In this document: positions 1,845 to 57,983 of the stretch, piece by piece
Position numbering within the stretch: the first letter of the stretch is position 1
How the letters are laid out: the number at the start of each line of letters is the position of its first letter
DNA from: Natronogracilivirga saccharolytica
Lineage (GTDB): Bacteria; Bacteroidota; Rhodothermia; Balneolales; Natronogracilivirgulaceae
NCBI RefSeq assembly: GCF_017921895.1
Contig: NZ_JAFIDN010000007.1
Coordinates: 1-64,000, forward strand
Length of the DNA stretch: 64,000 bases
Reading direction: 5' to 3'
Notes under the pieces: generated by a model
What the model was told of the DNA's origin: nothing
Database searches by the model: none
The model's input: only the letters and a program-made list of their open reading frames with translations
Program-made: the position numbers and the translations under genes

Positions 1845-4800
1845 TTGCTCCTTAAACGCCCTATAACCGCCATTATGCTCGTCCTGGCGACGTTTATCTT
1901 CGGATATATCGCCTTGCAGGAGCTTTCAGTGGATTTACTTCCGGATGTGGACGTACCTTCGCTCATGGTCCGCACCGAGTGGCCGGGGGCTTCGGCAAGT
2001 GAGGTGGAGACGCGTATCAATGAGCAGCTGGAAGCGGCGCTGGGTACGTTGCCCGGACTCCGGCGGTCCCAAAGCTTCGCCCGGCAGGGAATCGGCTTTG
2101 TCTCCCTTGAGTTTGAGTGGGGACACAATATGGATCTGGCGTTTCTCAATGCCCGCGAACGGCTCGATCAGGTCCGGTTCAGCCTCCCGCAGCAGGCCGA
2201 ACGCCCGCAGCTGGTCTACTCCGATCCCGGTGATGAACCGGTGGCCATCCTCGGGATTCAGCTGCGCGATAACCCCGACCCCGGCTACGATGAGCGGCTG
2301 GAGCTTAAACAGTGGGCCGATCGCGTGCTCACGCGCCGGCTCGAGCAGGAGCACGGCATCGCCCAGGCTGTCGTCGTCGGTGCCGTCACCCCCGAGGTGC
2401 ACATCCGGTATCAGCCCCACCTGGCGGATCGCTACGACCTCTCCACCGCCGAAATCCAGGCACGGGTCCGCGAGGCCAACGAGTTTTCTCCATCCGGGGA
2501 GCTGCGCGACGGCTGGTACCGCTACTCGCTGAAAATCGAAAGCCGTATCACCTCGGTCGAACAGCTCCGCCGCCTGCCGCTCAAGACCATCGGCGGAGAG
2601 CGTATCCTGCGGCTGCAAGATGTCGCGGAGGTTCACATGGATGAGCGCGATCCGGTCTCATTTTCCATGGTGGATGGCCGCCCGGTCCTTTCCGTCCTGG
2701 TGAAAAAGGATTTCGACAGTAACCTCGTGCAGGTGTTCCATCTGATGACCCCGGTCCTCGATGAGTTGCGCGAGCAATTTCCCGGCATCTCCATCGACGT
2801 GCTCAGCGAAAACGCCACCTTCATCGAAGCCTCGATCAACAATCTGCTCCAGACCCTGCTGCTCGGCGGCATCCTCGCCTTTTTTGTGCTCTTTTTCTTC
2901 CTGAACGACCCGCGCAGTCCGCTCACCATCGGCATCGCCATCCCCGTTAGCATCATGCTGACCTTTTTTGTGATGTACCTGTCCGGGATTCAGCTCAACA
3001 TCATCTCGCTGAGCGGACTCACCCTCGGCATCGGGTTGCTGGTCGACAACGCCATCGTGGTGCTGGAAAATATCAACCGTCACCGGAAATCCGGACTCCC
3101 GCTCTTCGATGCGGCCGGCAAAGGCACCCGCGAGATCGCCTTGGCGGTGACCGCATCCACCCTGACCACCATCTCCGTCTTTCTGCCGCTGGTCTTCCTC
3201 GGCGGATTCGAGGGCGCGTTTTTCCGGGACCAGGCCCTGACACTCTCCATCGCGCTGCTATCCTCGCTGCTGGTGGCGCTGCTGATTCTGCCGGTGCTGG
3301 TGCTTCAGGTTCAGAAGCGCAGAAAGCACAAAAGGATCGCGGATGCCGAATCCGGCCGCCGGCCCCATCCCCCCGAAACAACACCCGCGGACCTCCCCGA
3401 AGACCGGAGCACGATATTCACCCGCGCAATGGACCGCACCCAGGCCCGCTACGAAAAGCTGCTGCTCGCCAGTATCCGCCGGCCGGTGCTTGTCATCGCG
3501 CTTTTCCTGCTCGCGATGGCCCTCGCAGTAGTCGCTTTTCTCTATGTGCCGAAAGAGCTTATCCCGCAAGGGGAGGAGCAGCGGCTGCGCTACCGGGTCA
3601 CCATGCCCGGCAATACCGCGCTTCGCAGCACTGAGGAGGCGGCGCGCACGTTCACCGCATCCATCCATAATGCTGCGGGGTTGAATCCTTATACAGGCGC
3701 GACGAACCCGGATGATGGGGGGACGAGTCCGGCGGTGGGGCCCATCCTGACGCTCGGCGGCTACACCGACGACACCAACATCGCCCGGCTGGCGGATGAG
3801 GGACTCAACCGCTTTGTCATCGAAATTCCGCTGAACGATCCTCGCGCGGCCGGACGCATCCGCTCCCAAATCGAAACCCTCCGGCAGAACCAGCCGCACT
3901 GGCGCATCGAGGAGCTGGAGGCGCTGCCGCTCTTCGAAAATGTGCTCGGACGCCAGGCCGCCCCGGTAGTAGTCCACGTGGCCGGGCAAGATCGTCGAGC
4001 AGGGGCCGCCGGAGCCGAGCGTCTGCGCGGGATGCTGTCCGAGCGCAATCCGGACTGGCAGCTCGACCTGCAGCACACCGAAGAGGTAGAGACCTGGCAC
4101 CTGCATTTTCGTCCGGACCGCCTGCTGCGCTACGGCATCACCGAGCCGGAGGTGATCTCGTTTCTTGAATCCGCCGCCCGCGGCGCGATGATCACCGAGT
4201 GGATGCAGGAGGATGAAAACATCGATATCAGGCTCTATCAGCAGGTCAGCGCCCACTTCGATCCCGCCGAAATGCGCCTGCCCAGCCGCGGCCGCATGGT
4301 GCGCCTATCCGAGCTGGCGACCATCGAACATGTGGGCGAGCCGGAGCAGATTGAGCGTATCGACCAGACCCCGGTCATCAGTTACCTCAGCAACATCGGA
4401 CTGGCATCGTGGTGGTGGCAGCGCGGCGATTTCCGCGAAGTGGTGGAGGCGTTCCGGATGGAGACCGGCGTGGATGTGCATCTCTCGGGCACCGCCATCC
4501 AGGTGGAGTCGCTGCTCCGCGATATGGCGCGTCTGCTGCTCATCAGCGTGATTCTGATCTACGTCATCCTCACCGTGCAGTACGAGAACATGAAATACCC
4601 GCTGATCATCATGCTCGGGGTGCCGTTCGCGTGGATCGGATCGCTGCTGGTGCTCTGGCCGGCCGGGCTCAGCCTCAACATCCTGTCGTTCATGGGGATT
4701 CTGGTGCTCACCGGGATCGCCGTCAACGACGCCATCCTCAAGGTCGATTTCATGCGGCGCTACTTCCAGGACACCGGCAACCTCGACGAGGCTGTGCATC

Positions 4801-5078
4801 TGGCGGGGCGGCACCGGTTTCGTCCGGTCGTGATGACCACGATGACCACGCTGCTCGGACTGCTGCCCATGATCATCCCGATCGGGGATGGATACGAATT
4901 CCGGCAGTCGCTGGCCCTTGCCCTGATGGGCGGGATGGTGACCAGCACGCTGCTCACGCTCTTCCTCGTGCCGATGGTTTTCCGGTGGATCGAACGCAAA
5001 AAGCAGGGGGATATCCGGGAGCTCAAAGGAAAAGTCAGCTGGACCGGAGATCTTGATGCCATGAGAAGAAATGACTGA
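1845..5078 (+). CDS. RND-family efflux permease, first copy
   Basis: A 1077-residue inner-membrane proton-driven pump subunit. It shows the RND plan: KRPITAIMLV at the first membrane helix, two large periplasmic loops and two helix bundles. The TM4 motif GLLVDNAIVVLEN is near residue 400, with Asp-Asn instead of the Asp-Asp of AcrB. The TM10 equivalent GIAVNDAILKVDF near residue 955 lacks the AcrB relay lysine. The substrate cannot be read from sequence. The open frame starts at a TTG without a ribosome-binding site; upstream in frame lies ATG 1797 followed ten codons later by TGA (1827), so the true N-terminus is doubtful. The operon continues with the adaptor (86 nt away) and a second permease. 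GC content is much higher than in the DNA to the left. Confidence 0.9.
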   Translation: MLLKRPITAIMLVLATFIFGYIALQELSVDLLPDVDVPSLMVRTEWPGASASEVETRINEQLEAALGTLPGLRRSQSFARQGIGFVSLEFEWGHNMDLAFLNARERLDQVRFSLPQQAERPQLVYSDPGDEPVAILGIQLRDNPDPGYDERLELKQWADRVLTRRLEQEHGIAQAVVVGAVTPEVHIRYQPHLADRYDLSTAEIQARVREANEFSPSGELRDGWYRYSLKIESRITSVEQLRRLPLKTIGGERILRLQDVAEVHMDERDPVSFSMVDGRPVLSVLVKKDFDSNLVQVFHLMTPVLDELREQFPGISIDVLSENATFIEASINNLLQTLLLGGILAFFVLFFFLNDPRSPLTIGIAIPVSIMLTFFVMYLSGIQLNIISLSGLTLGIGLLVDNAIVVLENINRHRKSGLPLFDAAGKGTREIALAVTASTLTTISVFLPLVFLGGFEGAFFRDQALTLSIALLSSLLVALLILPVLVLQVQKRRKHKRIADAESGRRPHPPETTPADLPEDRSTIFTRAMDRTQARYEKLLLASIRRPVLVIALFLLAMALAVVAFLYVPKELIPQGEEQRLRYRVTMPGNTALRSTEEAARTFTASIHNAAGLNPYTGATNPDDGGTSPAVGPILTLGGYTDDTNIARLADEGLNRFVIEIPLNDPRAAGRIRSQIETLRQNQPHWRIEELEALPLFENVLGRQAAPVVVHVAGQDRRAGAAGAERLRGMLSERNPDWQLDLQHTEEVETWHLHFRPDRLLRYGITEPEVISFLESAARGAMITEWMQEDENIDIRLYQQVSAHFDPAEMRLPSRGRMVRLSELATIEHVGEPEQIERIDQTPVISYLSNIGLASWWWQRGDFREVVEAFRMETGVDVHLSGTAIQVESLLRDMARLLLISVILIYVILTVQYENMKYPLIIMLGVPFAWIGSLLVLWPAGLSLNILSFMGILVLTGIAVNDAILKVDFMRRYFQDTGNLDEAVHLAGRHRFRPVVMTTMTTLLGLLPMIIPIGDGYEFRQSLALALMGGMVTSTLLTLFLVPMVFRWIERKKQGDIRELKGKVSWTGDLDAMRRND

Positions 5079-5164
5079 TGAACTTTGATGAATCTGCCAT
5101 TTTATGAACATTCTATCTAATAAATCTGGCATGTGACTAAACTGCCACTTGAAATAGTAAAATA

Positions 5165-6274
5165 ATGATTGCATTAGCCCATTTATCCGGCAGCCGTCCT
5201 TACACGGCACCACTACTCATCCTGAGCCTGGTTTTCGGCGGATTTGCCGCGGCCTGTTCCGATGATAACGGCGGGGAGGAGGCCGGGACCCGAAGCACCG
5301 AACGGGAGGAGGTCCGGCCGGTTGTCATCTTCGACCGTGCCGATGATCAGCCCCTGTATCATCACATCGAAACGCAGGGCACCGTGGAGCCGCTCCGCGA
5401 GATCAAACTGTACAACCGCCTGGCCGGGTTCATCGAATCCAACGTGATCCGGGACGGCAGGCGTGTTGCCGGGGGCGACACCATCCTCGCACTGGACGAT
5501 CGCGAGTGGCAGATGGCGCTGGAGGATGCGCAAAACGCACTTGAAAAAGCCTCCTCCGAATATCAGATCGAGCGCAACCAGCGCCTGCGTGACGCTGGTT
5601 CGGAGGCGCTTCCGGATGAGATGGACCGGTTTCTGCGCAACGTGCACGGATATTCCGAAGCGATGGTTCAGGTCCGCCGGGCGGAGCTGGACCTCAGTTA
5701 CACCTCCCTCGTGGCCCCGTTCGACGGACAGATCCACACAAGGGAGAATTTCACGCGCGGGCAATATCTGTCGGCCGGAACCGAGCTGGGCCGCCTGGTA
5801 GATCAGTCGCAGGTGCGCGTAAGGTTCGACATGCTGGAGAGCGAGCTGGCGGATGTCGACGAGGGCATGACGGTTGAGCTTGAGACCGGATTCGGCTACC
5901 GGGCTTCCGGTGTTGTGGAGGCGGTCTCGCCGGTTGTGGATGACGAAAGCAAGACCGGACAGGTGGTGGCGCTGTTCGACAATCCGGAAGGCCGCCTGCG
6001 CGGGGGGATGACGGTTGACGGGCGGGTGCTCATCGAATCGGTCGAGGGGCGCTCCCGGATACCGCGTGCCGCAAAGCTGACGCGCGACGATCGTCCGCTC
6101 GTCTTCCGGCTCAACGGCGATGAGGTCGAATGGATTTACATCGATCCCGTCGCGGTCACATCCGAATGGGTGGTGATCAACGATGAGGAAATTACCCCCG
6201 GAGACACCCTGGCTGTTGATCAGCATTTCGCCATCAGCCACATGCAGAAGGTGAATCCGAGATTCCGGTTTTGA
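5165..6274 (+). CDS. RND periplasmic adaptor (membrane fusion) lipoprotein
   Basis: A 369-residue HlyD-type adaptor that would connect the RND permeases to an outer-membrane channel. The N-terminus has a signal with a lipobox-like GFAAAC, so the protein is probably lipid-anchored in the inner membrane. A barrel-sandwich half-motif (VEPLREIKLYNRLAGFIE, residues 75-95) is followed by a short helical hairpin (about 115-175) and the second half-motif (TSLVAPFDGQIH). A beta-barrel region (RVRFDMLESEL onward) completes the fold. The hairpin is short compared with AcrA, as in metal and mixed-substrate RND adaptors. It sits between two permeases, which suggests that both use it. Confidence 0.88.
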   Translation: MIALAHLSGSRPYTAPLLILSLVFGGFAAACSDDNGGEEAGTRSTEREEVRPVVIFDRADDQPLYHHIETQGTVEPLREIKLYNRLAGFIESNVIRDGRRVAGGDTILALDDREWQMALEDAQNALEKASSEYQIERNQRLRDAGSEALPDEMDRFLRNVHGYSEAMVQVRRAELDLSYTSLVAPFDGQIHTRENFTRGQYLSAGTELGRLVDQSQVRVRFDMLESELADVDEGMTVELETGFGYRASGVVEAVSPVVDDESKTGQVVALFDNPEGRLRGGMTVDGRVLIESVEGRSRIPRAAKLTRDDRPLVFRLNGDEVEWIYIDPVAVTSEWVVINDEEITPGDTLAVDQHFAISHMQKVNPRFRF

Positions 6275-6304
6275 TAATTTGGATTACGTCACCGCTGAAT
6301 TTCC

Positions 6305-9300
6305 ATGAAAGAACTCTTCCGGCGAAAATACCTGATTTCGATGTTCTACCTTGCGGTGGTGGCCGTCGGAATTATGGTGTGGCAGCGGATTCCGGTGGAG
6401 ATGTCGCCCGGCGTGCAGATGCCGAGCATCACGGTGAGCTACCAGTGGAGCCGGACCTCACCTGAGGTAGTCGAGCAGGAGATCACTCGCCGCGTGGAGC
6501 AGCAGGTTCGCCGGCTTCGGGATGTAGAGCGGGTGACATCGGTCAGCAACGAGGGACGCTCCTTTGTGACCGTCTATTTCCACAAACACGCCCCGGTCGA
6601 ATTCCGCAGCGTGGAGCTGCAGGAGTATCTGCGCGTGCTGGAGGAGAGCCTGCCGCCGTCGGTGCAGCCCGGCAGGGTGAGTCACCGGGTTCCGGAGGAA
6701 CTTCAGGAAATGCAGACCTTTCTGATTTACTCGATCAACAGCGGTGAGCGGGAGCCGAACGAGCTGCTGGAGTTCACCCGGCGCAACATCAAGCTGCCGA
6801 TGCTCGGGATTCGCGGCGTCGCGGGGGTGGAGCTTGAAGGGGTGCGCGACCCCGCACTGCTGGTCGACTTCGACGTGCCGGCCGCCGAACGGCTGGGCAT
6901 CAGCACCACCGATGTGATGCGGCAGGTCAATGAACGGCTTTCATGGCGGTCGGCCGGATACCGCGAACACGCCGGGATGCGGTACAGCCTGATGGTACCC
7001 CCGATGTTTGAAGGTACATCCGACATCACCGCCATGCCGGTCCGTCTTCCGGACAGCGAACGGCAGATTTCGCTGGGCGATATCGCCCGGGTGACGGTAG
7101 GCGATTATCCCGAGCGCACCGCCAGGCGTATCAACGGAAACCCGGCGCTCACCATCCGCTTCGAGCGCGAAACCGGCGTGGATGCACTTGATCTGGCCGA
7201 AACGGTGATGGCCCGGATGGATGAAATCGAAGCCGCGTTCCCGTCCGACATCCATCTGCAGATCGAACGCGACGCCACCGAGGACCTGCGCGAAGAGCTC
7301 GCCGCACTGGAACGCCAGGCGATGTTCAGCCTGCTTGCCGTGTTCCTCGTGCTGCTGCTGTTCATCCGAAAAGTCCGCGCCCCGCTGGTCATTCTCGGCA
7401 GCATCCTCTTTTCGCTGCTGCTTTCAGTGATCATGCTGCACATTCTGGGCTATACCATCAATGTAATTACGCTGGCCGGACTCACCATCGCCCTCGGGAT
7501 GATCATCGACAACGCGGTGGTGGTGTTCGAGCACATCAATCCGCGGCTCCCGCTTGCCCGGCAGGCGCGCATTGAGCATGTCCGCCGCCATCTGCCCCAT
7601 GTGCTGGTCCCGGTCATCGGCAGTACCCTCACCACCGTCGGCATCTTTGTCCCCCTGCTTTTTGCGATGGAGGAGGTGCGGATGTTCCTGATGCCGCTGG
7701 GCATGGCGCTCACGCTGACGCTGCTCGCCTCGGTGCTGATTTCGCTCACCTGGATACCTTACGCCCTGATCTGGCTTGTGCGGATGCCCGGTGCACAATC
7801 CCCATCCCCCCGCACGCTTTGGTCGAAACTTGCATCCCGCCTCCGGTTCTCTTTCCGGTCGCAGGACCCATCCCCCCGGAAAAAACGGGTCGGCCGGACC
7901 CGCATTCTGCTCGGATTCTTCACCTGGCGCCACAGGCTGCGCTGGCTGATTTATCCGGCCATGGTGCTGCTGATCGGCGTGCCGCTCTATCTCATCCCCG
8001 AGCCGGAGCGGGGCGATGATGAGGACGAGCCGGGGCGGTTGTATGAGTGGTCGCAGCTCTATTTTGATAACGAGGAAGTGATTAACCGCTATCTCGGGGG
8101 GATCGGATACCGGTTCCATCGCGGAGTCCGTTTCGGGGAAGGCTGGGCCGGGTGGCCGGAATATGATCATGTGATTGTCACAGTGCAGCCGCCGGTCGGT
8201 ACCCCGTTTGAGGAGATCGACAAGATCATCCGGCAGTTTGAGGCGCTGACCGGATCGTTTGAGCATGCCGTCACCTATTACGAGTCGCAGGTCAACGAGC
8301 AGGGGGCGTTCGGACGGCTGGAAATCCATTTCAAGGAGGAGTACCTCGACCGGCCGGATCCGTTCCGTCTGTTCGGGCAGGCATCGTATCTGGCGGCGCG
8401 GACCGGCAATACGAGGATATCGGTTCGCGGCTTTGGGGAGTCATTCGGCACCGGATTCGGCGGAGGGCGGATGCAGCACCGGATCACGCTGACCGGCTAC
8501 TCGTATGACCAGCTGGAGGCGTCGGCTGAGGAGCTTCGGCGGCGGCTGATGCGGCACCGGCGGGTGGAGGATGTGGATATCAATCAGTCAGAAAGGTTCT
8601 GGCGGGGTGATCTTTACCAGTATGTGCTGCGCCCAGACGACGACCGGATGACCAGGCGGGGGCTGGACCGTCCGGCGGTGCTGAACGCCGTGCAGCTGGA
8701 TATCAACCGGGAGCATTCGCCGTATGGGCGGATCGAATTCGGCGGTACGCAGATGTACCTGATCGCCCGGAACCTCCGTGACCGCGAGTATGTGGAGGAT
8801 TTTCTGCATGCACCCCGGCTGACAGGATCGACGGTGTTTACGCTGGCCGATATCGGGGAGCTGACACAGGAACGGACGTTGCCGCAGATCCGTCGGGAAG
8901 ATCAGATGTACACCAGGGTGGTGGCGTTCGACTTTCTCGGTCCGCATCGGCTTGCACAATCCGTTGCCGAAGAGGTCGTCGGGACGTTCCCCGTACCTCC
9001 CGGAATGTCGGTCACGACCGGCCATCAGGGCTGGTTCGGGGAGGATGAGGACCGCAGCCTGCTGCTCATCTTCCTGATGGCCATGCTGAGCGTCTGGATG
9101 ATCATCTCGGCGCTGCTGGAGCGGTGGCGCGACCCGCTGATCATCCTGCTGGCAATCCCGCTCGGCGGTATCGGAATCATGGCCGGATCGCTTTTCCATG
9201 AACTGCCATTTGACCGCAGCGCGATGGCCGGGGCGTTGCTGGTGATGGGCGTGGTGGTGAACAACGCCATCCTGCTGATGCACGGCAAGCAGAAGATGCG

Positions 9301-48729: not shown

Positions 48730-49413
48730 ATGATGTCGTGTCCCAGGTTGAAATATTTACCGGTAAGCATATTCATTTCATTTTTATTCATGGCGGTCTT
48801 GCTGCAACCCGGCCGGGCAATGTCCCCGGAAGCAGGTGACCCCGCCGGTGACTCCGGCTCCGATAGCGACGATACGGTAGCTTCTAATGCTTCCGTCGTT
48901 GCCGGGGAGACCGTCAGGATCATACTGGATCATGTCGATTCGGACAACAACCTGCTGGCCGGAGACGACAGAATCATCCCGCAGCCGGTTTATCTTGATA
49001 TGGATGTGCCGGCTTCGGTGCGTGACCAGATGTACCGGAGCCTGCTTGAGGAAGGCATCAGGCTGGCCGATTCTTCCGGTGAACGGCATGTGATTCGTAT
49101 CGAGTGGGAACCTGAAAATACCGTTATCATTGAACGTGGCGGATCCAGCCGCAGGATCCTGAGCTCCGATCTGTTTTTTACCTGGCTGGATCCGGATCAG
49201 GAGATACAAATTGCATGGAGCAGCTCGTTTCATGTGGAGGACGAGATACCTTCCGGTCAGGTTTCGGATCTGGCGGGCACTTGGAACCCGGCAAGGTTTC
49301 ATCACAGGGAAGAGTCCCGGCGATTCTCCGTGCTCAGCCGGCTGGCTGAACCAGCAATTATTACCGGAGCAGTAGCTGTCACCATTTACCTTCTCTATAA
49401 CGTAAGAAGTTGA
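48730..49413 (+). CDS. Exported protein of unknown function with C-terminal membrane helix
   Basis: A 227-residue protein. The start is taken at ATG 48730 (a second ATG follows at once), giving a signal-like N-terminus PVSIFISFLFMAVLLQPGRA. The mature part is acidic (SGSDSDDTVASN), then beta-rich with EGIRLADSSGERHVIRIEWE, and ends in a membrane helix (PAIITGAVAVTIYLLYNV) with a short basic tail. No family is recognised. A helix at the extreme C-terminus with most of the chain outside suggests anchoring to the inner membrane from the periplasmic side. Its stop TGA overlaps the ATG of the next lipoprotein gene (TGATG), so the two are translationally coupled. Confidence 0.65.
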   Translation: MMSCPRLKYLPVSIFISFLFMAVLLQPGRAMSPEAGDPAGDSGSDSDDTVASNASVVAGETVRIILDHVDSDNNLLAGDDRIIPQPVYLDMDVPASVRDQMYRSLLEEGIRLADSSGERHVIRIEWEPENTVIIERGGSSRRILSSDLFFTWLDPDQEIQIAWSSSFHVEDEIPSGQVSDLAGTWNPARFHHREESRRFSVLSRLAEPAIITGAVAVTIYLLYNVRS

Positions 49414-51059
49414 TGCAACCCGGAATGCACCGATTTTTATTCTTTCTTCTGATTGTCAGCACAGCATTTTTATTGGTGGAGTGCGCCACGCCCACGCAGC
49501 CTTCCGGTGGACCTGCCGACCGCACTCCTCCGGAAGTAGTGGAAACCGACCCGCCGTCCGGCACCACTATGTTTGACGGTGACCGGATCACCTTTCAGTT
49601 TTCAAAGTATGTTGACCGTGACAGTTTCCGGGAGGCCTTTCAGATGGAACCGGATGTCGACATAGAATATGATATCAGTTTCCGGCGCAGGTCGGTCAGG
49701 GTTACATTTGAAGATCCGTTGCCGGATACAACCACCATCATTTTCACTTTGGGAACCGATCTTTCCGATACCCGCAACAACAGAATCAATTCCCCTTACC
49801 AGCTTGCCATTTCCACCGGACCTGATATCGACGAAGGGAAGATAACGGCCAGGGTCAGGGATGCCGGCACCGGTGAGGGCAAGAGGGGCGAGCGGGTGGT
49901 GCTCTACCGCTATCCTGTCGATCTTGAAACCGGCGCCGATTATGTAGCCCAGGCTGATTCTGCCGGTGTGGTCAGCTTCAATTATCTTCGTGAAGGCAAG
50001 TACAAGGCGTTCTGGCTCGATGACCGGAACAGAAACCGCAGATGGGATCGTGACCGCGAAGACGCCCAGCCGTTTCGCACAGATACCATCGGGCTTGGGA
50101 GAGCAGATGAGCTGGATATCGGCACGGTTTTCGTAACCCGTGAGGACACCATCCCCCCGAGACTCCAGGGAGTGGGAATGCTTTCTGAAGTGCGCTTGAG
50201 GCTGCGGTTCAGCGAAGAGGTGATGATCGAAGATGATGCACTGCTGGAAATTACAGATACCGGCGGGCAGTTCATAACCGATGCCATCCCGCTTTATGTA
50301 GATGAACAGGATCAGGGCATCATACTTGCCCAGTCACCTGAGCCGCTTCCCGACGGCGTGTCATACAAACTGCAGATGCAGGGTATAACCGACCTGGCCG
50401 GAAACACGGCTGAATCGGATGTTGAAGAGTTTCCGGGGTCGGATGAAGCCGACACGACGTTTGCACGCTATATTGGCAACGATACCAGGCATGGAATTAC
50501 TCCGGATGAACCCCTCGTCTTTCGGTATGCAAGACTCCTGGATGATTCTCCGGATGTGCTGGACTCACTTATTGTGGTGGAAAGCCAGACGACCCACAGC
50601 CCGTGGCCGCACGCCGAAATAAGGGATAATCTGCTGTTTGTGTATCCTGACGGGGAGTGGAGCAGCAGCGAATCATATGAGATACGCGTCTGGGATGAAG
50701 CGGATATGAGCCGCAGAACGATTCAGCCTCAGATTCATTACGAAGACGACATGGGCGGGATGAATGTGATCATTGAAGAGGATGAAAACGGTGAAATCGA
50801 AAAGGATACCCTCACCTATCGCGTCCGCATTATCGATGAACGGGGCCATGTTGTGCGTGATGAGGAAATGACCGGGGAACGGGAGTTCGAAAAGCTGCCG
50901 CCGGGAAATTATGTGGTGAAGGTATTCGAAATAAGGGATGATTCACGAAACTGGGATCCCGGACGGGTTGATCCGTTCCGGAAGCCGGCTCTGTATTTTA
51001 TACAGGAAGATGTGCCGGTGGAGCGCGGGCTGACCGGCCAGGTATATGTTGAATTTTAG
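49413..51059 (+). CDS. Ig-like (SbsA/Big_5) lipoprotein
   Basis: A 548-residue lipoprotein. The N-terminus MMQ is avoided; ATG 49413 gives MQPGMHRFLFFLLIVSTAF and a Cys in LLVECATPTQPSGGPADRTP, the hallmark of Bacteroidota Ig-like lipoproteins (C..P..P.GGP.D..PP). Residues 33-130 form a first Ig-like domain (VVETDPPSGTTMF, ITFQFSKYVDRDSF). Residues 145-215 look like a carboxypeptidase-regulatory-type fold (GKITARVRDAGTGEGKRGE). A second Ig-like domain starts near 235 (DTIPPRLQGVGMLSEVRL). It is likely exposed at the outer membrane. It is coupled upstream through TGATG and overlaps the next gene by 14 nt. Confidence 0.82.
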   Translation: MQPGMHRFLFFLLIVSTAFLLVECATPTQPSGGPADRTPPEVVETDPPSGTTMFDGDRITFQFSKYVDRDSFREAFQMEPDVDIEYDISFRRRSVRVTFEDPLPDTTTIIFTLGTDLSDTRNNRINSPYQLAISTGPDIDEGKITARVRDAGTGEGKRGERVVLYRYPVDLETGADYVAQADSAGVVSFNYLREGKYKAFWLDDRNRNRRWDRDREDAQPFRTDTIGLGRADELDIGTVFVTREDTIPPRLQGVGMLSEVRLRLRFSEEVMIEDDALLEITDTGGQFITDAIPLYVDEQDQGIILAQSPEPLPDGVSYKLQMQGITDLAGNTAESDVEEFPGSDEADTTFARYIGNDTRHGITPDEPLVFRYARLLDDSPDVLDSLIVVESQTTHSPWPHAEIRDNLLFVYPDGEWSSSESYEIRVWDEADMSRRTIQPQIHYEDDMGGMNVIIEEDENGEIEKDTLTYRVRIIDERGHVVRDEEMTGEREFEKLPPGNYVVKVFEIRDDSRNWDPGRVDPFRKPALYFIQEDVPVERGLTGQVYVEF

Positions 51060-52532: not shown

Positions 52533-53645
52533 ATGCTTTCAAGAAATAAGGTGATGATGTTTATATCAGGTTTCAACCATTTGCAACTCAGGGAATGGGC
52601 TGCCGGTGTGCTGGTTCTCTTACTGGCTTTTGTTTTGGTTTTCTCTTCACGGACATACCGTCTCAACTCTGATTCAGCCATTCAGGCGCCGCCCGCTACC
52701 GTGCTGCTCATCGATGAGAGAATACAATTGGATGAGTTGATTTCCCTTTTGGAAGAAAGCGGCATTTCCTTTGATGCAGATGAATTGCGGTGGGCCTCAG
52801 GCATTGTGGGGTTGCGGAATTTCAGCACCGGCCGGTATGAATTTGACGGAGGCATTAGCTACCCTGAGTTCCTCAACAAACTTGCCATGGGCCTGCAGGA
52901 TCCCATGACGCTTCGCATACCTCCCGGCGCTGACAAGGAGAGACTGAAAGAGCGCATAGCCTCTCAGATGCAGTTTGAAGCCGATGATCTTGCAGCAGCC
53001 ATGTCCGACACAAGCATACTGAACCGGTATGGCATTGAGGCGCATGAACTTTACGGGCGGATTATAGGTGATTCCTATGAAGTCTACTGGACCACCTCGC
53101 CTGAGCGTCTTGTCAACAGACTGCTTTCGGAGTTTGAAAGGCGGATTATGGAAAGTTACGCTGACCGGATGGATGAGCTTGGCCTTAGTGCCGATGAAGT
53201 TACAACACTGGCATCCATCATAGAGTGGGAAGCTAAATATGACGATGAGAAACCGGCTATCAGCGGCCTTTACTGGAACCGGCTGGACAGTAGATGGCGT
53301 CTGCAGGCTGATCCGACAGTCAATTACGCGAAAGGGACAAGAAGCAGGCTGGTGTATGCCGACTACAGAATCGATCACCCGTATAACACCTATCGCATTC
53401 ACGGTCTTCCGCCCGGACCAATTACTAATCCTTCGTACTCATCACTGCGTGCCGCACTATATCCGGAAGATCACGATTACATGTTCATGGTGGCACGGCC
53501 CGACGGTTACCATGCGTTCTCAAGAACATATGCCGAACATCGGCGGAAGAGCAGGGAGTGGACCGACTGGCTCCGGGAGCAGCGTATGAAGCAGGCAGAG
53601 ATGGAGAGGGAAGAAGCAGCACGGCAGGGAGCAGCGGCAGACTGA
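52533..53645 (+). CDS. mltG: Endolytic peptidoglycan transglycosylase MltG
   Basis: A 370-residue inner-membrane enzyme that cuts nascent glycan strands. A single helix (AAGVLVLLLAFVLVFSSRTY, about residues 23-42) is followed by a LysM-like region and the YceG domain. The catalytic Glu is in TLASIIEWEAKYDDEKP near residue 232, and RLQADPTVNYAKG and PYNTYRIHGLPPGPITNPS are the conserved pocket. The C-terminal tail is highly charged. It sits in an operon with envelope proteins, matching its role in wall growth. ATG 52533 is used; ATG 52554 is also possible. Confidence 0.94.
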   Translation: MLSRNKVMMFISGFNHLQLREWAAGVLVLLLAFVLVFSSRTYRLNSDSAIQAPPATVLLIDERIQLDELISLLEESGISFDADELRWASGIVGLRNFSTGRYEFDGGISYPEFLNKLAMGLQDPMTLRIPPGADKERLKERIASQMQFEADDLAAAMSDTSILNRYGIEAHELYGRIIGDSYEVYWTTSPERLVNRLLSEFERRIMESYADRMDELGLSADEVTTLASIIEWEAKYDDEKPAISGLYWNRLDSRWRLQADPTVNYAKGTRSRLVYADYRIDHPYNTYRIHGLPPGPITNPSYSSLRAALYPEDHDYMFMVARPDGYHAFSRTYAEHRRKSREWTDWLREQRMKQAEMEREEAARQGAAAD

Positions 53646-53714: not shown

Positions 53715-54305
53715 ATGGAAATACTGGATATTTTTACGTTCGAATTCAGCTGGTTCGGCTGGGTCATTTTGCCCCTGCTGATACTCATTGCGAGAGTTGT
53801 CGATGTGACCCTTGGAACACTCCGGATTATATTTGTATCCCGGGGAATGAGGAAAATTGCCCCGCTGATCGGTTTTTTTGAATCGCTGATCTGGCTGGTG
53901 GCCATAGGGCAGATCATGCAAAGCCTGACCAATGCCGGACTCTATCTGGCATATGCAACCGGATTTGCACTTGGCAATTATGTCGGAATATATCTGGAAG
54001 AAAAAATCGCCATGGGACTGATATGCGTCCGCACGATTACCAACGAAGATGCTACCGAACTGATCGACTATCTGAAGGAAAAAGAGTTCGGGGTGACATC
54101 AATATCGGCAAGTGGTGTCAGCGGTCAGGTACGTCTTATACTGAGCGTAATAAAGCGTCGGGACCTGCAGGAAATGATCGGAATTATCAATGAAAAAATG
54201 CCGAAAGCCTTCATTTCAGTAGAGGATGTCCGCTCTGCCAGCGAAGGGTACTTCCCGCAGAAAAAAATCAGCCTGTTTTCCAGGCTTCCGATAATGCGAA
54301 AATAA
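53715..54305 (+). CDS. UPF0316 membrane protein (DUF5698 plus DUF2179)
   Basis: A 196-residue protein with three N-terminal membrane helices (ILPLLILIARVVDVTLGTLR and two more, to residue 90), then a soluble DUF2179 domain (EDATELIDYLKEKEFGVTSI). This is the exact layout of UPF0316/YebE-like proteins, which have no settled function; DUF2179 domains are ligand-binding folds. The end SLFSRLPIMRK is basic. It lies 69 nt downstream of mltG in the same direction. Confidence 0.9.
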   Translation: MEILDIFTFEFSWFGWVILPLLILIARVVDVTLGTLRIIFVSRGMRKIAPLIGFFESLIWLVAIGQIMQSLTNAGLYLAYATGFALGNYVGIYLEEKIAMGLICVRTITNEDATELIDYLKEKEFGVTSISASGVSGQVRLILSVIKRRDLQEMIGIINEKMPKAFISVEDVRSASEGYFPQKKISLFSRLPIMRK

Positions 54306-54402: not shown

Positions 54403-54459
54403 ATCATTTCATGATGGCACGATCATCTCAGGATGGTATCATCATCCCGGGACGGCATC
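54403..54459 (+). repeat. Three 19-bp tandem repeats at the end of the LpoA-like gene
   Basis: Three degenerate copies follow each other without gaps: ATCATTTCATGATGGCACG (54403), ATCATCTCAGGATGGTATC (54422) and ATCATCCCGGGACGGCATC (54441). The last copy overlaps the stop codon of the minus-strand gene. The copies are partially self-complementary, so hairpins are possible. Confidence 0.7.
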
Positions 54460-56344
54460 ATTCATCCGTATTCCCGTCATTATCACCGTTATCTTCGTCT
54501 TCATCATCCTCATCCTCATCTTTTTCAGGGACATAAAGAATGGTTTCATCTCTGGTGACATGCAGAAAATGGAGATAATTATTGATGTGAGAGCCCTGGA
54601 AGTCGATGTTTGTAATCACTCCTTCGTATTCAGGCAAATGACGCAGGCGCGGCTTGATTCTTCCGGGATTCTGCAATTCAGTCAGGCTCTTGAAAAGATA
54701 TGTGGCCACATCATAGCCAAGGTGCGCAAAGTTGTCGGCGCCGGAGCCGGTGAGTGACTGGTAGTTGTCCTGAAATCTGCGGGTTGCCCGTTTATCTTCA
54801 TCGGTGTGGAAAAAATCACTGTAATATATGTCAAAATAGCGGCGTCTATCATCGCTCAGGTCGACATGTGACATCTCCTCGTTTCCAAGTATCGTAACCT
54901 CGCTCCGGTTCGCCTGAAGGTCTGTCAATATGATATCAATGAGCTGATCCGACCCTGATCCGGTTACCGAAAGATAGAGTCCTTTTATCGGTACAAGAGG
55001 ATAGTCATCAGGGTCTACACCTCTTCCCAGATGCCGCTCGCTCCGTGCAAACCAGGGAGTGATATGATCGACATCAAAAGCGGTCTCTTCAAAATTTTCA
55101 CTGAAGTAATGCACCACCTTGGCTCCCAGTTTTTCGGCTTCATTTCTGAAAGCCTGGGCTTCGCGGACCACAGGCTGGTTGCTCTGGGTGATCACGGCCA
55201 GTGTATCCAGCTCCAGTTTGTTTACGGCAAAGCGCGCCATGGCCTTGCCTCTGACTTCGAATGTCGGGTTAATTTGGTAGATGTATGGATTTTCGATGTT
55301 CAGGGTATCCGCATTGGCAAGTGGCGGGATGACGGGTATTTGATAATATTCGGCAAGGTCCCGGATTTCATAAGCCGCCTCGGAAAACAGCGGCCCGATT
55401 ACCGCGTCAGCATGATATTTCCAGGCCATTTTTGCCATCGCCGCCTTGTTTGTGAGTGCAGTATCGGAAGTTGTTACATGATGCAGACGGATATGCTTGT
55501 CGTCATTCTCTCTGTTGAATTCTTCGGCTGCAAGCAGGTATCCGTTATACAGAGACCGCGCCACACGCCACTCTCTTGATTCGCTTTCCGTTTCAGGAAG
55601 CAGCACTCCGATATTGTAGACGATGCCTTCAGGAGCGGGCCCGTATCTGGCCGATGCACTTCTCTGCTCCGGCAACCGGTCGATCCGTCTTTTCAGAGCG
55701 GCTACCATATTGGTATCGATGGTGTCATGGAAATAATTCTCAAGTGTACTGTACAGCTCTGATGCTTCCGGTCTGGCCATGTAGTCCAGCCCGTAACGCA
55801 GCAGATCAAACTGCACCCTCGGATACTCACTCTGCATAAATGCCTTGCGGCGTTGTCCGGTTGTGAGGTACCCTATGATCTGATCATAGAGAATTTCGGC
55901 ATCTTCATGCAGATCCTGGTAGGCAGGACGGGATTTGAGATTGTACAGCTTATCAAGACTTTTTCCGTACTGGCGGGTCTGAAAATCGGCAAGTGACAGT
56001 GTATAGCGGGCCTCATCATGCAGCCGGGGATCATCATCCCGTGTCAGCTGGCGAAGCTTGTTTTTGGCTTTTGGGTACTCGCTGAGGGCAAAGTAGCTTT
56101 TGCCCAGGAAAAGCTTTGCTTCAGGAGTCTCCAGGCCGGAGAAAAAATATGCCGCTGAGTCAAACTGAGCATTCCGGTAATGATCCATTCCTTTCTCGAA
56201 GCGGTCATCGGTATCGGTTGCTTCTGTGCCGCCGGACATGCCGGTAATCCCCGCAGAACCATTTGCAGTCAGACCTGAAAAAAGCAGCAATCCGCCGAAA
56301 AAAATGATGGAAAAGAGACCGGACAAATAACGGTGGTTGTTCAT
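54458..56344 (-). CDS. Exported TPR plus type I periplasmic-binding protein, LpoA-like architecture
   Basis: A 628-residue exported protein. A signal peptide (LFSIIFFGGLLLFSGLTANG) is followed by TPR-like helices at residues about 48-165 (FEKGMDHYRNAQFDSAAYFF) and a type I periplasmic-binding fold at 235-590. The latter contains VYNIGVLLPETESESRE, ADAVIGPLFSEAAYEI and IPVIPPLANADTLNIENPYI. The tail is a run of Asp/Glu/Asn. Databases would call it a branched-chain amino-acid receptor, yet no permease or ATPase gene is near. The order of TPR then PBP is that of LpoA, the outer-membrane activator of PBP1A. Unlike LpoA it has no lipobox Cys. It follows guaA by 79 nt. Confidence 0.75.
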   Translation of the reverse strand: MNNHRYLSGLFSIIFFGGLLLFSGLTANGSAGITGMSGGTEATDTDDRFEKGMDHYRNAQFDSAAYFFSGLETPEAKLFLGKSYFALSEYPKAKNKLRQLTRDDDPRLHDEARYTLSLADFQTRQYGKSLDKLYNLKSRPAYQDLHEDAEILYDQIIGYLTTGQRRKAFMQSEYPRVQFDLLRYGLDYMARPEASELYSTLENYFHDTIDTNMVAALKRRIDRLPEQRSASARYGPAPEGIVYNIGVLLPETESESREWRVARSLYNGYLLAAEEFNRENDDKHIRLHHVTTSDTALTNKAAMAKMAWKYHADAVIGPLFSEAAYEIRDLAEYYQIPVIPPLANADTLNIENPYIYQINPTFEVRGKAMARFAVNKLELDTLAVITQSNQPVVREAQAFRNEAEKLGAKVVHYFSENFEETAFDVDHITPWFARSERHLGRGVDPDDYPLVPIKGLYLSVTGSGSDQLIDIILTDLQANRSEVTILGNEEMSHVDLSDDRRRYFDIYYSDFFHTDEDKRATRRFQDNYQSLTGSGADNFAHLGYDVATYLFKSLTELQNPGRIKPRLRHLPEYEGVITNIDFQGSHINNYLHFLHVTRDETILYVPEKDEDEDDEDEDNGDNDGNTDE

Positions 56345-56423: not shown

Positions 56424-57983
56424 CTATTCCCACTCGATCGTTGCCGGGGGCTTGGAGCTGATATCGTAGACAACCCTGTTGATACCTTTGACCTCGTTGA
56501 TGATCCGGTTGGATACCTTTGCAAGAAAATCGTATGGGAGGTGGGCCCAGTCGGCCGTCATTCCGTCTACACTTGTAACAGCCCGCAGGCCGACCACAAA
56601 CTCATAGGTGCGCTCGTCTCCCATTACTCCCACACTCTGAACCGGGAGCAGGACCACAAAGGCCTGCCAGACCGAATCATACAGGTTATGTGAGCGCAGT
56701 TCTTCGATGTAGATGGCATCGGCTTCCTGAAGCAGGCGGACTTTCTCGCGGGTGACGTCGGAAAGAATTCTGATCGATAGTCCGGGACCGGGAAAGGGGT
56801 GGCGTCCAAGAAAATCGAAAGGAATATCGAGGGCGGCGCCGACTTTGCGAACCTCATCTTTAAACAGTTCCCGGAGCGGCTCCAGAAGCTTCAGGTTCAT
56901 TTTTTCAGGCAGCCCGCCAACATTGTGATGCGATTTGATGGTAACGGAAGGACCGCGAAATGAAACGCTCTCGATAACATCGGGGTAAAGTGTGCCCTGT
57001 GCCAGATGGGTAAATCCATTTTCCTCGCTGACGGCATTGTCGAATACTTCAATAAAGGTATTGCCGATGATCTTCCGTTTTTTTTCCGGATCGCTTACTC
57101 CTTTCAGACGGTCGAGAAACAGGTCGGACGCATCCACAGCCTTGACCGGGAGTTTCAGCTTTTCGGTATAAAGATGCTGTACATCGGAAAATTCATTTTT
57201 TCGCAGTACGCCGTTGTTTACAAAAACGCATAACAGTCGGTCGCCGATAGCGCGGTGCAAAAGCGTTGCGGCTACGGTAGAGTCCACCCCGCCGGACAAT
57301 CCGCATATGACTTTGCCGTCGCCGGCCTGCTCACGGATCCGTTTAATGGTGCTGTCGACAAAAGATTCCGGCGTCCAGTAACCCTTCAGGCCGCAAATTT
57401 TGCGCACAAAATTGTGGAGTATGTCACGGCCGTGTTCGGTATGCACCACCTCCGGATGAAACTGTACGCCGTAAACTGGCCGGGTATGATCTTTAACGGC
57501 GGCTACCGGAGCATTGTCTGTCCGGGCGATGACATCAAAGCTGTCCGGCAGGTGGATGATGTGGTCACCATGACTCATCCAGACGGTATTTTCATCGGGA
57601 ATTCCTGCAAACAGGGCATTCCTTTTGATTACGCTGATTTTTGCCCTGCCATATTCCCGCTTTTCTGCATTGCTGACGGAGCCGGGCTTCAGGTGGTGAG
57701 CCATTGCCTGCAATCCGTAGCAGATACCCAGGACCGGCACGTTCAGATCCAGTACTTCCTTGTTGAATGCCGGTGCATCGGGATCATTGACACTCATTGG
57801 TCCGCCTGAAAGGATGATTCCGCCGGGCGGCCGGGCGGAAAACTGCTTCAGATCGGTGTCAAAGGGGTGTATTTCACAGTACACCTGGTTTTCCCGTATG
57901 CGACGGGCAATCAGCTGATTATACTGGGAACCGTAATCCAGTATAAGTATCCATTCTTGCTCCGGACTGGTAATTCCTGTCAT
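56424..57983 (-). CDS. guaA: GMP synthase (glutamine-hydrolysing)
   Basis: A 519-residue enzyme converting XMP to GMP. The N-terminal amidotransferase has the nucleophile Cys in LGICYGLQ and the catalytic His/Glu in GVQFHPEV. The ATP-pyrophosphatase domain has the P-loop GLSGGVDST (near residue 230) and the C-terminal dimerisation domain ends KPPATIEWE. All key residues are intact. The ATG at 57983 lies 3 nt after the gcvH stop, indicating co-transcription from the efp side. Confidence 0.97.

Follow-up and report, generated by a model that had tools for sequence, protein, structure and literature searches.

What does a protein that joins a helical TPR arm to a type I periplasmic-binding fold do in a bacterium whose genome yields no match to the branched-chain permease family? 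The question is raised by a gene in a stretch of 64,000 nucleotides of Natronogracilivirga saccharolytica (contig NZ_JAFIDN010000007.1, positions 1 to 64,000), referred to here as the window. A preliminary description, made from the letters of the window, had compared the encoded protein with LpoA, the activator of the peptidoglycan synthase PBP1A, and had doubted the usual label of amino-acid receptor. We examined both ideas by structure prediction, profile searches and comparison of gene neighbourhoods. NCBI places the order of this organism in a phylum of its own, Balneolota; the counts given below for the phylum and the class use the GTDB groups, which we take to be Bacteroidota and Rhodothermia, respectively.

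Domain architecture of the encoded protein

The gene is a single uninterrupted frame encoding 628 residues (Table 1). The protein matches Peripla_BP_6 over the Pfam cut-off (7.9e-17), its TPR-type Pfam matches all fall under the cut-off, and no LysM was found in it at E<=1. An AlphaFold2 model was built from 26 sequences, the window protein and 25 relatives from the named loci introduced below. The full-length model (mean pLDDT 85.3, pTM 0.81) predicts 11 helices within residues 39-222, after which the binding fold, with its strands and helices, begins at residue 241. Residues 1-39 and most of the acidic tail are modelled with low confidence, and a low-pLDDT helix spans residues 9-22, within the signal-peptide-like start. 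The order of signal peptide, TPR-like helices and type I periplasmic-binding fold, which the preliminary description had likened to that of LpoA, is thus recovered by AlphaFold2 and Foldseek, with the signal peptide read by eye, and the protein would presumably be secreted.

Two further features noted earlier, the lack of a lipobox and a long acidic tail, were also seen on closer analysis. A simple pattern applied to the first 60 residues found no lipobox in any of 26 rows (the protein and its 25 relatives, the L041 row being without its N-terminus), and the 628-residue protein contains no Cys at all. The acidic tail is common to most of the closest relatives, with the exception of L044. Among the Balneolaceae rows at greater distance, most have no such tail and stop between a few and 14 residues past the fold; L058 and L052 have longer C-termini with a milder acidic tail. 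Judged from these alignments, the tail is a lineage-specific trait and does not define the family.

Table 1. Features of the locus, in coordinates of the window.
Feature	Position	Strand	Remarks
TPR + type I periplasmic-binding-fold protein, 628 aa	54458..56344	(-)	secretion-type N-terminus; ORF, Pfam, AlphaFold2
Predicted signal peptide, Sec type, ~residues 1-31	56252..56344	(-)	read by eye from sequence; cleavage site putative
TPR-type helical domain, residues 39-222	55679..56230	(-)	Pfam, AlphaFold2, fold searches
Type I periplasmic-binding fold, residues 239-607	54524..55630	(-)	Pfam, AlphaFold2, fold searches
Cleft motifs, S321 to N344	55313..55384	(-)	LivJ Ser79 and Thr102 positions by alignment
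Acidic tail, residues 604-628, 15/25 D/E	54461..54535	(-)	lineage-specific; from sequence
guaA (GMP synthase), conserved partner	56424..57983	(-)	79 bp upstream, same strand
gcvH, accC, accB, efp, rest of the conserved run upstream of guaA	57987..60869	(-)	
mltG (YceG), convergent neighbour, conserved within the order	52533..53645	(+)	Pfam YceG
DUF5698/DUF2179 protein between mltG and the gene	53715..54305	(+)	found in L031-L045, not L046-L061

Comparison with known folds

When the model is compared with known structures by Foldseek and VIA-align (the best 50 rows of each run were considered), two kinds of protein stand out. Leucine-type binding proteins rank first in Foldseek with the full model, and full-length Haemophilus LpoA (5kcn, 5vbg, 5vat) occupies ranks 6, 7, 16 and 21, with alignments of 587-594 columns at E 7.7e-14 to 2.8e-12. 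Since the next longest alignment among these 50 rows has only 478 columns, LpoA alone among them is aligned over a length sufficient for both domains, as read from column counts and not from aligned ranges. The two proteins do not superpose jointly over both domains (rmsd ~24-26 A in Foldseek), so either the domains are placed differently from those of LpoA or the predicted angle is wrong. In VIA-align 3hut, a putative receptor for branched-chain amino acids, has the best Z, 26.8, at 2.7 A for 335 aligned residues. The best 50 VIA-align rows for the whole model are aligned from about residue 239 to 607, with one starting at 154, and LpoA is absent from them.

The helical domain was also modelled alone (pLDDT 90.9). 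It gave no Foldseek match at E<=0.001, and its first rows were BamD, an APC/C subunit, LapB and YbgF; VIA-align placed type III chaperones and YbgF first at Z ~13, a level that the tool rates as common for helical repeats. Generic TPR thus rank first for this domain, and LpoA-N is absent from the best 50 rows of both programs, which is no proof of a different fold.

A link to LpoA at the level of sequence was considered and rejected as evidence of homology, as the profile alignment to E. coli LpoA covered no more than 84 columns, in the TPR part, at probability 9. By the same comparison LivJ reached probability 76 over 285 columns, and the best profile matches are branched-chain amino-acid binding proteins. 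LppC (PF04348) has no match in the 628-residue protein (Pfam, E<=1) or in its genome; the positive control, E. coli LpoA (b3147), scored 5.9e-135. LppC matches occur in 6 of 198 genomes of the phylum, one of them over the cut-off, and L116, a distant relative, carries a sub-threshold LppC match (0.0016). The domain order is therefore that of LpoA, and the separate domains, as modelled, are not specifically LpoA's.

Is the protein a transport receptor?

A receptor for amino-acid transport would be the conventional reading of a Peripla_BP_6 protein, and we searched for its permease. The organism's own genome, which is 97% complete, encodes one Peripla_BP_6 protein, the 628-residue protein itself, and has no match to the BPD_transp_2 (PF02653) permease (both Pfam, E<=0.001); 12 of 14 control genomes were positive for PF02653. 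Within the order, 50 of 55 genomes are without a match, and one of the five that have one has it weakly. PF02653 matches are found in 17 of 46 other genomes of the class and in 156 of 392 genomes of the phylum, which we take, from the same sample size and handles, to be the 392 genomes used below for the family profile. Sugar permeases, too, fall under PF02653. We also searched 102 loci that surround family genes (31 named and 71 other loci, some fetched twice, with flanks from nothing to ~10 kb) by tblastn at E<=1e-3, and found no match to E. coli LivH or LivM. In the same searches the positive control worked, and E. coli LivK weakly matched certain family genes themselves. The earlier remark that no permease accompanies the gene is thus borne out for PF02653 in the genome and for LivH and LivM in these loci.

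The ligand cleft gives a more divided picture. By alignment to E. coli LivJ, Ser79 corresponds to S321, Thr102 to N344 and Glu226 to E489, the three LivJ residues being, we assume, those of the backbone pocket for the amino-acid ligand. Of the two findings that the preliminary description would have held against its own reading, linkage to branched-chain permeases was not found and a conserved amino-acid pocket was found in part: S321 is identical in all 26 rows of the order, N344 likewise keeps Asn in place of Thr in 26/26, and the Glu226 position is Glu in 18/26 and otherwise variable. All 18 loci from the class's other orders have Ser at the Ser position, and 16 of them have Thr at the Thr position. 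The Ser79 position is Lys, Gln, Leu or Arg in the LysM-bearing versions described below and Lys in E. coli LpoA. The invariance of S321 and N344 within the order is what would be expected if a ligand were bound. From these alignments a working ligand cleft may persist in this class; it is not a trait of the whole family.

When these results are taken together, an ordinary amino-acid ABC receptor with an added TPR arm, its permease encoded elsewhere or belonging to another family, is improbable. It would explain the Peripla_BP_6 match, the branched-chain proteins that lead both the fold and the profile searches, the retained Ser and the LivK matches; it is disfavoured by the missing PF02653 match in the genome itself and in most of the order, the lack of LivH and LivM around the family genes, the Asn at the Thr102 position and the variable Glu226 position. 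Its conserved neighbours, moreover, are guaA, gcvH, accC and mltG. Relative to LivJ/LivK, 3hut and 4gnr the protein shares the type I fold and the Ser at the LivJ Ser79 position, and differs from them in its TPR arm, the Thr102 position, the absence of a PF02653 match in its genome and its guaA synteny. A transport role is unlikely because the genome has no permease match and the conserved synteny includes no transport genes, and the doubt first cast on the receptor label is strengthened by these observations together with the structure search.

Distribution and genomic context

The gene is present in 54 of 55 sampled genomes of the order, a count that includes the organism's own genome and its taxonomic family and misses only G142, and the family is present in all 46 other genomes of the class. 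Within the taxonomic family, orthologues were found in 18 of 20 genomes, the two misses being 60% and 80% complete. Orthologues align at 32-67% identity across the order, a conservation that, on these sequences, is far beyond chance. From the whole phylum, 192 of 392 genomes match the family profile, many of those outside the class only partially. Two family-profile matches each were seen in seven genomes of the order (G041, G065, G080, G123, G131, G158 and G210), which may be split hits or paralogues. A plasmid search with the 628-residue protein gave no match.

We compared gene order in 31 named loci, which were retrieved with a family alignment query (a single-protein query of contigs matched none). 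All are Balneolales by title (Balneolales, Balneolaceae, Aliifodinibius and Rhodohalobacter, the latter two genera belonging, we assume, to Balneolales), and their best segments are 33-68% identical; they overlap the family genomes (e.g. L031 and L004), so the two sets are not independent. The names guaA, gcvH, accC, accB and efp are those that we presume for the window genes from their sequences. No terminator-like site was found by a terminator scan in the 79-bp gap between guaA and the gene. Of the 31 named loci, 29 have guaA immediately upstream of the gene and on its strand, the exceptions being L041, whose contig begins inside the gene, and L046, where no neighbour was recognised within 6 kb; the gene order efp, accB, accC, gcvH, guaA is largely preserved where the contig is long enough. 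L046 (SLJN01000337.1) is itself unusual as an orthologue without any queried neighbour in ~6 kb upstream. Beyond the named set, guaA also stands upstream and on the same strand in 19 of 20 loci, L106 being the exception; other orders of the class contribute 18 of these 20 loci, and other families of the order contribute two. In the rest of the phylum, guaA was found within the fetched stretch in 9 of 19 loci, which had been selected mostly for their high scores; in all nine it is on the same strand and upstream, and in five it lies within 1 kb. As the guaA product is a cytosolic enzyme, this synteny is by itself no hint to function.

On the other side of the gene lies mltG, which the preliminary description had placed 0.8 kb away on the opposite strand; the distance is 813 bp, with the DUF5698/DUF2179 gene between. 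A convergent MltG gene is found in 28 of the 31 named loci, the exceptions being L039 and L060, where the contig ends, and L046. Such a neighbour was seen only inside the order, MltG being found in none of 39 loci beyond the named set (18 from other orders, two from other families and 19 from the rest of the phylum). MltG associates with peptidoglycan synthases according to an excerpt of PMC8135044. We considered this linkage as a functional proof and rejected it, since the two genes are convergent and none of the 18 loci outside the order but within the class shows the arrangement. Near the MltG cluster, the window also encodes a putative lipoprotein (49410-51059, (+)) with a Cys in LLVEC near its start, which is kept in several of the closest relatives.

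LysM-bearing relatives

LysM is a peptidoglycan-binding module. Outside the class, some relatives carry TPR matches before the binding fold (L135 and L139 included), and in seven others (L136, L143, L150, L153, L158, L193 and L197) three to four LysM precede it. Five guaA-linked relatives (L126, L130, L138, L154 and L157) show neither TPR nor LysM by Pfam. L193 is the gene of L140, and L199 and L200 are second fetches of L153 and L158. The Peripla_BP_6 match lies under the Pfam cut-off in five of the seven LysM relatives, which match the family weakly: the genome search gave E 1.6e-8 to 2.6e-4, with the binding fold covered in part, and a comparison limited to a few ORFs gave E 1.6e-13 to 2.4e-7. 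The 24 genomes of this genome search were preselected for weak matches, and their 24/24 matches are no statistic. We leave out of this discussion L147, L148, L149, L151, L152, L155 and L156, which match mainly in the TPR part; L144 also matches first in that part.

The genomic position of these genes helps to tie the two versions together. L153 and L158, with LysM, lie directly downstream of guaA, and so do the TPR-bearing L135 and L139. In L194, L196 and L197, from genomes that appear from their sequences to be Flavobacterium-like, the LysM version shares its strand with guaA and follows it at a distance of ~2 kb; the order in L197 (genes at 4326-6242 and 6297-8402) is guaA, a four-LysM protein with a long middle part and then the LysM and binding-fold protein. 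Near the LysM versions L193, L195 and L198, guaA was not found within 16 kb. We link the LysM and TPR versions because of the profile matches to the binding fold and the shared genomic slot. Set beside the LysM proteins of L140, L143, L153 and L158, which belong to the same GTDB phylum, the window protein has a similar binding-fold C-terminus and, as in several of them, guaA upstream; it differs from them in that they carry LysM instead of TPR, a diverged fold and no Ser at the Ser79 position. This apparent replacement of TPR by LysM in some relatives hints at the cell wall and is the strongest single clue to function that we have.

A candidate partner and the relation to LpoA

The genome encodes one Transgly protein (E<=0.001), a class A PBP (L021:9370-11811), on a different contig (G000:C4) from the gene of the 628-residue protein (G000:C7). 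This lack of linkage is uninformative either way, because lpoA and mrcA also lie apart in E. coli K-12, by ~230 kb. E. coli MrcA has PCB_OB at 316-425, a region that we take to be ODD, the LpoA docking domain of MrcA, and no PCB_OB was found in the class A PBP of this genome (Pfam, E<=1). Among 30 class A PBPs of the class (L021, its own, and L161-L189), the distance from a TTLD-like motif to the start of the transpeptidase is 88-108 residues in 20; eight of the remainder have a similar stretch whose end was missed by the pattern, and two are without the first motif. The comparable distance in MrcA is 142 residues, PCB_OB included. Lying where MrcA has PCB_OB, this stretch is no more than a candidate for docking.

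These results allow the likeness to LpoA to be placed more exactly. The LpoA N-domain is TPR-like, and its C-domain has a substrate-binding-protein fold and touches PBP1A (excerpt of PMC4111904). Compared with LpoA/LppC (E. coli b3147, H. influenzae 5kcn), the window protein likewise has a signal peptide, a TPR-like arm and a type I periplasmic-binding fold, with no transporter. Unlike LpoA, it has no lipobox and no LppC match, its TPR is nearer to generic TPR, the model gives its domains another placement, and PCB_OB was not found in the class A PBP of its genome. That it is a true LpoA orthologue, inherited or transferred, which activates PBP1A by the known route, is very improbable on these grounds, even with the same domain order, a Foldseek alignment long enough for both domains and the scattered LppC matches in the phylum. 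An excerpt of PMC3060616 describes LpoA and LpoB, outer-membrane activators of peptidoglycan synthases, as confined to gamma-proteobacteria, LpoA together with its docking region; its authors add that sequence-unrelated proteins may do similar work in other phyla. The LpoA-like interpretation of the preliminary description accordingly stands as a statement on architecture, LpoA being the only protein among the best 50 Foldseek rows with an alignment long enough to span both domains. It does not extend to membership of the LpoA family, given the missing LppC match, lipobox and PCB_OB and a TPR that, as tested, is not specifically LpoA-N-like; taken by itself, the binding fold comes closest to leucine-type receptors.

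Proposed role

Our best reading, to which we give slightly less than even confidence, is that of a secreted, non-transport envelope scaffold, analogous to LpoA, that most likely acts on peptidoglycan synthesis via a class A PBP. The type I periplasmic-binding fold would act as a protein-docking or conformational module, and the TPR arm would bind a partner; in some relatives LysM repeats, which would hold peptidoglycan, replace this arm. The protein would be stationed in the periplasm or at the wall itself, with no outer-membrane lipid anchor, and would do LpoA-like work by touching, and perhaps stimulating, the cell's one class A PBP. Activation of the PBP by the 628-residue protein is hypothetical, and a working LpoA analogue is plausible. 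In favour of this reading are the long LpoA alignment, the missing permease matches, the conservation of the gene across the order, the LysM versions near guaA and the MltG neighbour. Against it are the likeness of the isolated binding fold to leucine-type receptors, the two invariant cleft positions, the absence of LpoA-N from the lists for the helical domain, the failure of the two domains to superpose jointly on LpoA, a class A PBP without PCB_OB and on another contig, the weak matches of the LysM relatives, the guaA-linked relatives that show neither TPR nor LysM, and the three LysM versions without guaA within 16 kb.

A possible, if doubtful, alternative is that the protein is an envelope scaffold or sensor of another pathway, such as outer-membrane protein assembly, Tol-Pal-type constriction or secretion, and makes no contact with a PBP. 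The TPR arm would then dock a partner in the manner of BamD or CpoB, and the periplasmic-binding fold would sense a small ligand. Such a role would suit the helical domain, whose nearest matches in searches with that domain by itself are BamD, LapB, YbgF/CpoB and further generic TPR, the two cleft residues invariant in 26/26 rows and the unlinked class A PBP gene. It is opposed by the LysM versions among guaA-linked relatives, which point to peptidoglycan, and by MltG, a neighbour of the gene within the order.

A broader form of the LpoA-analogous scaffold reading is somewhat unlikely in our estimation: a guaA-linked family of cell-wall regulators with the periplasmic-binding fold in GTDB Bacteroidota, matching LpoA in role beyond gamma-proteobacteria, with TPR in the class and peptidoglycan-bound LysM in Flavobacterium-like members, that would use another docking part of the class A PBP and possibly be gated by a small ligand in the conserved cleft. 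Among the listed matches of an open-licence literature search, judged by titles and the starts of abstracts, none concerned a TPR- or LysM-bearing wall regulator of the PBP1 fold in Bacteroidota, and a paper on the Flavobacterium johnsoniae BAM does not mention LysM, TPR or peptidoglycan in its main text.

If the LpoA-analogous scaffold reading is correct, a receptor fold would have been reused for the same job in another phylum, and this kind of control over wall growth would have a much wider reach, whether by origin or by spread. Proteins that profiles label as mere periplasmic binding proteins would gain a function as well.
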